A program made the translations under genes and the position numbers. From Gammaproteobacteria bacterium (GTDB lineage Bacteria > Pseudomonadota > Gammaproteobacteria > Burkholderiales > Rhodocyclaceae), in the NCBI GenBank assembly GCA_018824085.1, contig JAHJHI010000039.1, positions 62,001 through 126,000 of the forward strand: a stretch of 64,000 nucleotides of DNA, written 5' to 3'. Below are positions 41,997-44,705 of the stretch, one piece after another. The notes beneath the pieces are model-generated. The model searched no databases. It was not told where the DNA came from and saw nothing but the letters and a program-made list of their open reading frames with translations. Each line of letters begins with the position of its first letter. The first letter of the stretch is position 1.

Positions 41997-42422
41997 ATGC
42001 AGATCGGCGTAGACAGCCAGCGCGCGGTGGAGAACAGGCGCGTATTCGTGGTCGACAACGACGAGGTCGTCGGCATGGCGCTGCAATTCATGCTCGCCGA
42101 CGAGATGGAAACCCACGTACTGCAGGGCAGCGCCGAAGCGCTGTCCAAGGGCGCGGCCGCGCCGCCCGACGTATTGCTGCTGGGCTCGGGCGTGCTGGCG
42201 AGCGAGGGCGTCGACGTGGTGACCCGCCTGAAGGCCGGGTTGCCCGGCGTGAAGATCCTGCTCGTGTGCCTGGACGCCGCGGAGGACGACGTGCGCGCGG
42301 CACTCGCGCTGGGCGCCGACAGCACGCTGCTGCGTCCGCTCAAGGTGGAGAACGTGCGCCGCCGCGTGGATACCCAGCTCGGTCGGCGCACGCCGCTGGA
42401 AATCCCGGTCGTGCTGCGCTGA
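41997..42422 (+). CDS. Degenerate receiver (pseudo-response-regulator) protein in the nifF operon
   Basis: 141 residues, a single CheY-like receiver fold without output domain. The acidic pocket (VFVVDNDE, D20/D22) remains, but the phosphoacceptor is Gly63 (PDVLLLG), the beta-4 Thr/Ser is replaced by Cys (ILLVCLD), and the conserved KP Lys is Arg (LLRPLK). It therefore cannot be phosphorylated in the usual way. GGAGGCAGCAACC ribosome site. Ends 10 bp before the AAA+ gene, pointing to a joint function. Confidence 0.82.
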   Translation: MQIGVDSQRAVENRRVFVVDNDEVVGMALQFMLADEMETHVLQGSAEALSKGAAAPPDVLLLGSGVLASEGVDVVTRLKAGLPGVKILLVCLDAAEDDVRAALALGADSTLLRPLKVENVRRRVDTQLGRRTPLEIPVVLR

Positions 42423-42432
42423 AGGCGCCGCC

Positions 42433-44136
42433 ATGAAGATCCTGATCGACGCGCCGCACGTGGAAAGCATGGTCGATGCGTTCCCCGACCTGGCGGCATT
42501 GCGCGAGCAGCTGCGCTTCGGCAAGCGCATCGAGGTGCCGGTGTCGCGCCTGTCGGTCGAGGCACTGCGCTTCCTCGGCAAGCTCTACAGCGACGCCGGG
42601 CCCGCCATGGCGCTGCGCGCCGCCCACCTGGCAACGCTGCAGCGCGCGCTCGAAGGCGACGGCCACCGCTTCGCGGCGAACGATCTCGAATCGGTCGTGC
42701 CGGCGCTGGCGCGCCACCTCGCGACCGACGCGATACGCGGCTGGCTGTTCACCGCGAACCTGACGACGCGCCCGCTGCCCTGGGTGGTGAGCCGGCTCGA
42801 CTACACGCCTGCCAGCAGCGACGAGAGCGGCAAGGTGTTCATCGAACTCAAGGCCAATGTGAAGGCCACGCTGGCGACCACCGTCATCCGCATCTACGGC
42901 GCCGACGTGGTCGGGCGCACCGTCGGCGAAATTCTCGCCAGCAAGGGTTTCCTGAAGGAAACGCCGGAACTGGTCGCGGCGTGCGACGCCACCGTCGAAC
43001 GCTATTTCGACTGGCGCGGCCGCTATGGCGAACAGTTCTCCGGCACCGGTACCGGCTTCCACGCGGAAGACCCCACGGCCAGCCACCGCGACACCGACTG
43101 GTCGCGCAAGGACGTCGTCGTGCTGTCGGCCAGCGGCGGCGCAGCGCGCCTGGTCAACGACGAGGGCATCCTGCCGGCGCGCACGCTGCTGCTGGACGCG
43201 CCGGGCGACATCCTCGGCCCGTATCTGCGCAAGGCGGCGAAGAGCAACCGCTACGACGCCGAAGAGGAAGTCGGTGCCTCGCGCGACGCGATGCCGGAGG
43301 GGCTGTTCTCGCAGCTGCCGGTGCATCCTTACGTCCTGATGTTCCACCTCGACCTGCACCACTACCTCTGGGTGCACGTGGACGACATGACGCCGTACGC
43401 CTACCAGCCCGCGCTCAAGCAAAAGCTCGTGCTGCCGCCGGAACAGACCGACCTGATCGACATCCTGACGGCCGAGATGGACGTGCTGATGGACGACATC
43501 ATCGCCGGCAAGTCGGGCGGCACCACGGTGCTGTGCGCCGGGCCGGCCGGTGTCGGCAAGACGCTGACCGCCGAGGTGTATTCGGAAATCATCCGCCGCC
43601 CGCTGTACCGCGTGCATTCCGGCCAGCTCGGCCTGAACGTCGCCGCGATGGAGACGGCGCTGAAGGACGTGCTCACGCGCGCGCAGCGCTGGGGGGCGGT
43701 GATGCTGATCGACGAGGCTGACGTCTACATCAAGCGGCGCGACGACAACATCGCGATGAACGCCGTGGTCGGCGTGTTCCTGCGCGTGCTCGAGTACTTC
43801 AACGGCCTGCTCTTCCTCACCACCAACCGCGTCGATGACATCGACGAAGCCATCGTGTCGCGCTGCATCGCGCTGATCCGCTACGAGCCGCCCGACCTGG
43901 CCGCGCGCGCGCGCATCTGGCAGGTGATGGCGGCGCAGTTCGCGCTCGGCATCGACCAGGCGCTGACCGATGAACTCGCCGCACTGTTTCCGGCCGCCAC
44001 CGGCCGCGACATCAAGGGCCTGTCCAAACTGGCCGCGAAGTACTGCCAGCACAAGGCCTGCGCCCCCACCATCGCCGTGTTCAGACGCTGCGCGATCTTC
44101 CGCGGCATGACCCCGGCACACGAGCTTCCCGCCTGA
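42433..44136 (+). CDS. AAA+ ATPase with large unknown N-terminal domain, upstream of nifF
   Basis: 567 residues. Residues 1-~340 match nothing I recognise (contains WVVSRLDYTPASSD, and a Tyr/His-rich stretch LDLHHYLWVHVDDMTPYAY near 315-333). Residues ~345-540 are an AAA+ module: Walker A GPAGVGKT (370-377), Walker B VMLIDEAD (Asp427-Glu428), sensor-1 LTTNR (Asn465), and SRC arginine region. Not of the sigma-54-activator kind (no GAFTGA). Likely a remodelling or disassembly ATPase; partner candidates are the adjacent pseudo-receiver and nitrogenase assembly proteins. Confidence 0.85.
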   Translation: MKILIDAPHVESMVDAFPDLAALREQLRFGKRIEVPVSRLSVEALRFLGKLYSDAGPAMALRAAHLATLQRALEGDGHRFAANDLESVVPALARHLATDAIRGWLFTANLTTRPLPWVVSRLDYTPASSDESGKVFIELKANVKATLATTVIRIYGADVVGRTVGEILASKGFLKETPELVAACDATVERYFDWRGRYGEQFSGTGTGFHAEDPTASHRDTDWSRKDVVVLSASGGAARLVNDEGILPARTLLLDAPGDILGPYLRKAAKSNRYDAEEEVGASRDAMPEGLFSQLPVHPYVLMFHLDLHHYLWVHVDDMTPYAYQPALKQKLVLPPEQTDLIDILTAEMDVLMDDIIAGKSGGTTVLCAGPAGVGKTLTAEVYSEIIRRPLYRVHSGQLGLNVAAMETALKDVLTRAQRWGAVMLIDEADVYIKRRDDNIAMNAVVGVFLRVLEYFNGLLFLTTNRVDDIDEAIVSRCIALIRYEPPDLAARARIWQVMAAQFALGIDQALTDELAALFPAATGRDIKGLSKLAAKYCQHKACAPTIAVFRRCAIFRGMTPAHELPA

Positions 44137-44162
44137 CCCACACCACCTGAATGGAAATCACC

Positions 44163-44705
44163 ATGGCACGCATCGGACTCTTCTTCGGCACCAACAGCGG
44201 CAGCACGCGCAAGATCGCGAAGCAGATCAAGAAACGCTTTGACGACGAAACGATGGCTGACCCGGTCAATATCAACAAGGCGACGGTCGAGGATCTGCTG
44301 GCCTACGAATTCCTCATCCTCGGCACGCCGACGCTGGGCGACGGCCTGCTTCCCGGCATCGAAGCCGAGTGCGACGACGAGAGCTGGGCCGAAGCGCTCG
44401 ACAAGTTCAAGGGCACCCGCTTCGCCGGCAAGACGGTCGCGCTGTTCGGCCTCGGCGACCAGGACACTTACGGTCACGAATTCGTCGACGGCCTCGTGCT
44501 GCTGCACGACTTCTTCCAGGACGCCGGCGCGAAGATCGTCGGCGCCTGGCCGACCGAAGGCTACAGCTTCACCGAATCCCAGTCCGTCGTGGATGGCAGG
44601 TTCGTCGGCCTCGCCATCGACCAGGACATCCAGCCCGACCTGACCGCCGAGCGTATCGAAGGCTGGCTCAAGCTGATCGCGCCGGACTTCGGCCTGTCGC
44701 TCTGA
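44163..44705 (+). CDS. nifF: Nitrogenase flavodoxin NifF
   Basis: 180 residues, long-chain flavodoxin: FMN phosphate loop [26 protein letters not shown] and [15 protein letters not shown]. Electron donor to NifH; in this cell Rnf would reduce it or a ferredoxin. GGAAATCACC fixes the start at 44163 rather than 44151. Third gene of the receiver/AAA+/nifF operon. Confidence 0.95.

Follow-up and report, generated by a model that had tools for sequence, protein, structure and literature searches.

Why an operon encoding a receiver-fold protein, an AAA+ ATPase and a flavodoxin lies in the middle of a nitrogenase (nif) gene region is the question raised by the locus described here. The window, which is the whole stretch of 64,000 nucleotides that was analyzed (positions 62,001 to 126,000 of contig JAHJHI010000039.1, from a gammaproteobacterium of the Rhodocyclaceae), carries the three genes one after another on the forward strand: a pseudo-receiver of 141 amino acids (positions 41997–42422, +; Pfam Response_reg, E = 9.2e-10), a nif-linked AAA+ ATPase of 567 amino acids, hereafter the AAA protein (42433–44136, +; Pfam AAA, 2.1e-15 at residues 366–479), and a long-chain flavodoxin of 180 amino acids (44163–44705, +). 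The flavodoxin matches the FldA/flav_long models of NCBIfam (NF006739, 3.7e-63; TIGR01752, 5.7e-58), and the name nifF can be given to it by context. The reading frames are as claimed in the initial annotation, with intergenic gaps of 10 and 26 bp, where the second gap becomes 14 bp if the flavodoxin begins at the alternative ATG at 44151 (184 amino acids). The operon was also correctly placed between nifENX and nifHDK, both of which run leftward on the opposite strand, with a small gene, P0004, and a Rieske-type ferredoxin gene intervening. The closest named genomes are those of Methyloversatilis, with 78–91% identity in the AAA protein. The ratio of nonsynonymous to synonymous substitution rates (dN/dS) against three Methyloversatilis orthologs is 0.14–0.29 for both the receiver and the AAA protein, which indicates that both are true genes and excludes chance open reading frames.

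The explanation that we prefer, with a probability of about one half, is that two independently conserved nif accessory genes stand together with a flavodoxin behind one sigma54-type promoter, where the AAA protein would act as a remodelling ATPase and the receiver as a fixed interaction module.

The distribution of the two genes was determined in a sample of 399 genomes of the order and in a sample of 237 genomes of the phylum, and a GTDB-wide scan gave 252 relatives of the AAA protein; the analysis used the best 80 of these loci, which lie in 79 genomes (67–91% identity). Scoring was limited to the top-ranked candidates in each genome, 3 for the AAA protein and 10 for the receiver in the order genomes, and 5 and 17 in the phylum genomes, so that the receiver may be missed in genomes rich in response regulators. 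In the order sample, some match to the AAA protein at E 1e-10 is found in 83 genomes and an ortholog, full-length or nearly so, in 20 (67–100% identity; the ortholog of G226 covers residues 81–560 in one search and 1–559 in another). A NifD query matches 59 order genomes, with NifD itself in 58 and a NifE-like match at 33% alone in G373. NifD is present in 19 of the 20 genomes with an AAA ortholog (Fisher test, 1.8e-16 on the 59 matches, without correction for kinship), and the remaining genome, G135, appears, from a shared contig of 33,143 bases, to be the same as assembly G409 (L066), which encodes NifB. Among the best 80 loci, NifD or NifB is encoded by 75 of the 79 genomes: NifD by 69 (41 of 49 and 28 of 30) and NifB by 6 of the other 10. 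The four genomes with neither are metagenome-assembled (Ferrovum, Methylocystis, a proteobacterium and a Hyphomicrobiales bin). In the phylum sample, the AAA protein is found at E 1e-60 in 5 genomes, NifD in 36 and both in 4; the fifth AAA genome, G544, has an in-frame stop in the match and no NifD. The receiver profile is found in 26 order genomes, 25 of which have NifD, the exception being again G135, and in 4 phylum genomes, all with NifD. The initial annotation had named co-occurrence with nif as one of the checks to be made, and had taken an occurrence of the two genes mostly outside diazotrophs as speaking against its proposal; since both genes are nif-linked, that objection fails.

The 59 AAA orthologs that were aligned come from alpha-, beta- and gammaproteobacteria, and the named hosts include many methanotrophs and methylotrophs together with Beijerinckia, Derxia, Azorhizobium, Bradyrhizobium and Sulfuriferula. 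In two nif-bearing genomes, G034 (L050, ~10.1–10.5 kb) and G373 (L055, ~9.8 kb), fragments of the AAA gene alone were found, and these apparent remnants suggest gene loss in the two lineages. In G205 (L048, ~15.2–15.9 kb), a second partial copy (residues 220–426, 77% identity) lies ~4 kb downstream of the full gene.

The AAA protein consists of an N-terminal part (residues 1–355) and an AAA module (356–567). The module contains GPAGVGKT (370–377), LIDEAD (425–430), TTNR (463–466) and SRC (476–478), which we take to be the Walker A, Walker B, sensor-1 Asn and arginine-finger regions. The GxxGxGKT, LIDEAD, TTNR and SRC columns are invariant in the 59 orthologs, and GxxGxGKT, DE, NR and RC are invariant also in eight outside members, from Methyloversatilis to Bacillus phage AR9. 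Judged by its sequence, the window protein has the nucleotide motifs of a classic AAA ATPase (PF00004). Over the 59 orthologs, the mean majority-residue frequency is 85% in the AAA module, where 115 columns are invariant, and 75% in the N-terminal part, where 66 are. Searches of Pfam, NCBIfam and the Protein Data Bank (PDB; the best 60 of 158 matches) reach the AAA module alone, at about residues 360–555.

Threading unfoldases have an aromatic-hydrophobic-Gly pore loop, which the window protein lacks. Its pore-loop-1 position is occupied by N402-V403-A404, with no aromatic residue (lnva is aligned with KWVG of a VCP-like ATPase). The stretch reads HSGQLGL(N/S) in all 42 nif rows of the tree described below, and no aromatic residue follows HSGQLG or its equivalent directly in the 52 of the 53 tree rows in which the motif was found (L168 was unmatched). 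Because the aromatic residue is missing, partial remodelling or dissociation would be expected over full threading. Pfam scans, which covered the 59 orthologs together with nine distant homologs, found no protease domain.

Relatives of the AAA protein also occur on mobile elements. It matches 156 plasmid records, one at 74% identity and 155 below 60% (33–41% in the 29 matches listed), with hosts that include Citrobacter, Klebsiella, Paraburkholderia, Pseudomonas, Moellerella and Providencia. The match at 74% is a Methylococcus plasmid, where the AAA gene lies beside isc and nif genes; no nif genes were found in the five outer plasmid loci inspected. The Bacillus jumbo phages PBS1, AR9 and Goe21 encode a homolog at 35% identity, and in three Rhizobium phages the likeness extends over the AAA part. 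A tree built from 53 chosen rows splits 42 nif rows from the 11 others, which come from plasmids, phages and other chromosomes, with a support of 95/94; its root is arbitrary, and its outer branches are long and of unsure order. As far as these comparisons can tell, the AAA protein belongs to a broad and partly mobile ATPase family, whose members combine a single AAA module with a large N-terminal part, and forms a nif-specific branch of it.

Among the phage homologs, those of phrog_29662 (AR9 gp082 and its PBS1 counterpart) share the two-part architecture, with 35% identity over residues 24–559, and the PHROG model matches residues 84–558 of the window protein with E 4.2e-100. They differ in lying outside the nif clade, and some are labelled protease though no protease domain was found in them. 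The AR9 homolog (L167:3914–5560) corresponds to nearly the whole AAA protein, has an annotated early promoter ahead of it and is labelled "ATP-dependent protease". Through one Rhizobium phage homolog, a likeness to fungal DUF7025/AAA_lid_13 ATPases was seen (PF22942 and PF23232; 4e-4 and 1.2e-3, both below the gathering score), whereas neither model is matched at E 0.1 by the window protein and the 58 other orthologs. These matches bear out only in part the idea of a DUF7025 domain in the N-terminal part.

The 113-bp spacer between P0004 and the receiver gene carries two −24/−12 elements back to back. The sigma54-type promoter of the receiver-AAA-flavodoxin operon, GGGAACGAAGCTTGCT (41942–41957, +), scores 21.5 out of 24.5, a value equalled by 0.4% of 2000 dinucleotide shuffles, and the divergent sigma54-type promoter, CGGCACATCTCCTGCT (41922–41937, −), directed toward P0004-nifE, scores 21 out of 24.5 (0.5% of 2000 dinucleotide shuffles). 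In an alignment with five other Methyloversatilis loci, the GGGAACGAAGCTTGCT block is nearly unchanged in a spacer that has otherwise diverged, and the GGCA and GCTTC ends of the CGGCACATCTCCTGCT block are kept. Upstream of the AAA gene, a sigma54-type site of at least 21 within 300 bp is found in 18 of 82 loci, compared to 1.5% of mononucleotide shuffles, and 16 of these loci are among the 78 of the nif clade. Sites of at least 22.5 are found in 7 loci, all nif, compared to 0.1% of mononucleotide shuffles. The receiver genes have a site of at least 19.5 within 200 bp in 16 of 16 loci and of at least 20.5 in 13 of 16, where the corresponding values for dinucleotide shuffles are 3.1% and 1.4%.

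In Azoarcus olearius BH72, azo3791, a "conserved hypothetical ATPase", is among eight genes with both RpoN and NifA sites, which were drawn from lists of genes that NifA regulates and that are modulated under N2 fixation (PMC3916325). Genome G388, which two BH72 primers match exactly (azo0720 at 816,725 and azo3471 at 3,896,874), has an AAA ortholog of 70% identity at 4,238,209–4,239,894, and interpolation between the two primer positions places this gene near azo3777. A sigma54-type site, TGGCACCAATTCTGCT, lies at −68 of the G388 ortholog and a TGT-N10-ACA site at −157, which agrees with the sites given for azo3791 in the accessible text of PMC3916325. Considering its position and its upstream sites, azo3791 is very probably the ortholog of the window AAA gene. 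The Azoarcus gene differs in that it stands alone, with no receiver or flavodoxin at its locus (L043), and nifHDK is distant (580 kb, compared to 4,238 kb for the AAA gene, in a contig of 4.45 Mb). The AAA orthologs of G205, G111 and G363 likewise have a sigma54-type site (21.5, 19.5 and 19.5, weaker than that of G388) and TGT-N10-ACA. No function is named for azo3791 in the accessible text of PMC3916325, and none was found for a nif-linked AAA ATPase in the literature searched, outside which most subscription papers fell; within that literature, the earlier statement that no nif role has been described holds. The AAA gene has thus probably been recorded before, as a gene under NifA and RpoN regulation to which no function was assigned.

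The receiver matches Pfam Response_reg (PF00072) with 39.1 bits, compared to a gathering score of 30.2, and its columns 63, 91 and 113 are those which we presume to be the catalytic positions of CheY. The phosphoacceptor Asp is replaced by Gly63, and Gly is found in all 16 aligned homolog rows and in all 26 rows of a wider alignment (19 distinct homologs besides the window), where the copies from nine of the 26 order genomes were left out. The Thr/Ser position is Cys91 in the window and C, A, T, V or S across the family; at the Lys position, Methyloversatilis has Arg113 and a Sulfuriferula group has Thr, and many homologs retain the Lys. The description in the initial annotation of a receiver with all signature residues altered is therefore true of the genus Methyloversatilis and not of the whole family. 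An N-terminal MQIGV(D/E) stretch is nearly invariant. In 10 of the 13 regions fetched, the receiver gene is divergent from a nearby nifH; a SagB-like nitroreductase gene is near it in 8 of the 13 and a gene for a 197-amino-acid protein in 6 (one at 22% identity). A similar gene, nrf3, was reported on the nif fosmid DX-1A-14 from an acid mine as a "two component response regulator" of 426 bp and 15.0 kDa, with a sigmaN-binding site and its nearest relative in Herbaspirillum seropedicae (PMC3912193). Compared by description and not by sequence, nrf3 probably belongs to the receiver family: it agrees with the receiver in length and nif-cluster setting, and differs in that the accessible part of that report says nothing of a lost acceptor.

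As for the relation between the two proteins, the initial annotation proposed an AAA machine guided by the receiver. In such a dedicated pair, the AAA motor would have the unphosphorylatable receiver as its adaptor or recognition subunit and would act together with it, as one machine, on nitrogenase. Both genes are nif-linked, they are adjacent in all six Methyloversatilis stretches (the window and L056–L060), and among the 59 NifD-match genomes, 19 of which have the AAA gene, 25 the receiver and 12 both, there is a slight excess of co-occurrence (12 of 19 compared to 13 of 40; Fisher p 0.047, without correction for kinship). However, of the 80 loci, 5 have the receiver and flavodoxin next to the AAA gene, and all 5 are of this one genus; in the order sample, the receiver is missing in 7 of the 19 AAA nif genomes and the AAA gene in 13 of the 25 receiver nif genomes; and the usual neighbours of the receiver are nifH, the SagB-like protein and the 197-amino-acid protein. 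An obligate pair was rejected since the adjacency is confined to one genus, the guided machine is not supported as a general unit, and a dedicated pair is unlikely. The simplest reading is that of two separate nif accessory genes that are joined in one genus, where binding between the receiver and the AAA protein is possible and is not required by the distribution. It would be more surprising still if the receiver worked as an ordinary response regulator that takes its phosphate on some other residue. The acidic metal-binding pair is kept in part, the Lys is retained in many homologs, and nrf3, a probable family member by its description, was called a two-component response regulator (PMC3912193); nevertheless, Gly occupies the acceptor position in every homolog read, 141 amino acids leave no room for an output domain, and the immediate neighbours are P0004, the AAA gene and the flavodoxin, with no kinase among them.

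For the AAA protein itself, a role as an unfoldase feeding a protease, or as a protease, that clears damaged nitrogenase components would accord with the annotation of some phage homologs as an ATP-dependent protease (phrog_29662) and with the profile matches of the AAA module to proteasome-type ATPases in the PDB. Against this, the C-terminus is filled by the AAA module and its lid, the pore-loop aromatic residue is absent, and the protease identity was rejected since no protease domain was found; the broader role is very improbable. A mobile-element or anti-phage gene that has settled in nif islands, without a role in nitrogen fixation, is also improbable, if slightly less so. The relatives on plasmids and in jumbo phages are consistent with such an origin, as is a resemblance of the AAA module (residues 329–536) to the anti-phage protein IetA (PADLOC, 1.1e-11; NCBIfam, 3.6e-8). 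However, the IetA match is limited to the AAA module, with the N-terminal part unmatched, and its 33 bits compare to a curated NCBIfam score of 510. The nif clade is set apart in the tree, nearly confined to nif genomes and partly found behind sigma54-type sites; the window neighbours are nif and redox genes, and the recurring neighbours recognised elsewhere are nif or redox genes, where defence genes were not searched for. The identity as an anti-phage gene was rejected because the clade is nif-bound. The best-fitting alternative, although still a doubtful one, is that the AAA protein serves electron supply or the maturation of Fe-S clusters or cofactors (flavodoxin, ferredoxin, IscA-type proteins) rather than nitrogenase itself. 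The AAA gene shares an operon with the flavodoxin in the window, and genes for IscA, NifS, a Rieske ferredoxin, an FAD amine oxidase or SagB-type proteins lie close by elsewhere. The neighbours were surveyed by tblastn with the window proteins, which detects only those genes with a counterpart in the window and, in some loci, covers a short flank. Within 1.5 kb and on the same strand, SagB-type (14 of 80 loci) and FAD amine oxidase genes (13 of 80) are the commonest among the window proteins tried, followed by IscA and NifS (5 of 80 each), so that each such neighbour is found in a minority of loci; moreover, nif clusters contain many such genes regardless.

The explanation by two independent accessory genes has several observations to account for that weigh against it. 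Of the 59 genomes that the NifD query matches, 40 lack the AAA ortholog, which indicates that the AAA protein is dispensable for nitrogen fixation in general. Its neighbours vary widely with no constant partner, and no core nif gene is found within the available stretch in 47 of the 80 loci. A site of at least 21 within 300 bp is absent from 62 of the 78 nif-clade AAA loci, part of which are internal to operons as in the window, and the two non-nif relatives L053 and L054 (G025 and G072, of one genus), which make up the rest of the 18 loci with such a site, have theirs ~145 bp upstream with a score of 21.5 out of 24.5. An exact TGT-N10-ACA is absent from the 113-bp spacer and from three Methyloversatilis loci (within 500 bp). 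The N-terminal domain, which the initial annotation rightly called unrecognised (~355 residues instead of ~340), is covered by no Pfam family in profile searches over the 59 orthologs, where matches are weak and scattered, such as Phage_tail_X in 6 of 59 with a best value of 0.0045.

With these points considered, the features of the sequences suggest that the AAA protein is most likely an ATPase under NifA control that remodels nitrogenase, or its assembly or electron-donor proteins, without proteolysis. The protein would be made when nitrogenase is made, and its N-terminal part would bind a nif protein, which may be a nitrogenase component, an assembly scaffold or an electron donor. Adenosine triphosphate (ATP) would then drive a change in the conformation or complex state of the bound protein, without degradation, as Rubisco activases do on Rubisco. 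Rubisco activases such as CbbX are AAA+ repair motors encoded beside their enzyme. The likeness, drawn by description and not by sequence, is that of an AAA+ ATPase bound to one enzyme system and lacking a protease domain. The receiver is most likely a fixed protein-protein interaction module, the gene of which is usually divergent from nifH. A bolder form of this explanation, which we regard as tentative and rather unlikely, is a nitrogenase activase: a NifA-controlled motor in many proteobacterial diazotrophs that would rescue inhibited or mis-assembled nitrogenase or free it from protective or assembly complexes, and that in Methyloversatilis would be directed by a receiver locked in a single signalling state. 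To our knowledge, no such activase motor is known for the nif system.

The genes around the operon were named by NCBIfam as nifE, nifN, nifX, nifK, nifD, nifH and nifB. P0004 (41569–41883, −; 104 amino acids, without a Pfam family) lies between nifE and the receiver gene, from which it diverges, and upstream of nifE; its homologs are found within 10 kb of the AAA gene in 18 of 80 loci. The listed reading frame of nifE (39902–41443, −) is matched by TIGR01283 from residue 49 (3.7e-200), and the start is probably further in. On the other side, the Rieske-type ferredoxin gene (44823–45140, −; Pfam Rieske, 3.4e-15) lies between the flavodoxin gene and nifK, and nifK, nifD and nifH (TIGR01286, TIGR01282 and TIGR01287) occupy 45443–49620 (−). 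A scan of the window with Rfam at gathering scores gave no match.

Several other genes of the window were observed in the course of this survey. An open reading frame of 223 amino acids at 50367–51038 (+), without a Pfam or NCBIfam match, corresponds to the 197-amino-acid protein (~197 amino acids in relatives), which adjoins nifH or the receiver in several diazotrophs and is matched, in some cases weakly, no more than 10 kb away from the AAA gene in 22 of 80 loci. A nitroreductase-family protein, presumably SagB-like, is encoded at 11491–13167 (−) and the FAD amine oxidase at 61673–63256 (−). The nif region also contains genes for a SIR2-like domain protein (PF13289, 1.8e-21) at 53083–53928 (−) and a DUF6156 protein (8.1e-33) at 51786–52061 (+), homologs of which are found within 10 kb of the AAA gene in 12 and 13 of 80 loci, respectively.

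What is new here is a nif-bound branch of a known kind of ATPase, undescribed in the literature searched, and the finding that both genes are companions of nif beyond one genome. Over decades, the genes for the assembly and protection of nitrogenase have been charted one by one; this AAA ATPase, highly conserved and accompanying nitrogenase in the lineages that have it, has nevertheless been little noticed, and an assigned function was not found in the literature searched. The pseudo-receiver gene, for the most part divergent from nifH, is likewise linked to nif and has likewise received little study. If the AAA protein does reactivate or remodel nitrogenase, it would be relevant to the transfer of nif genes into new hosts.

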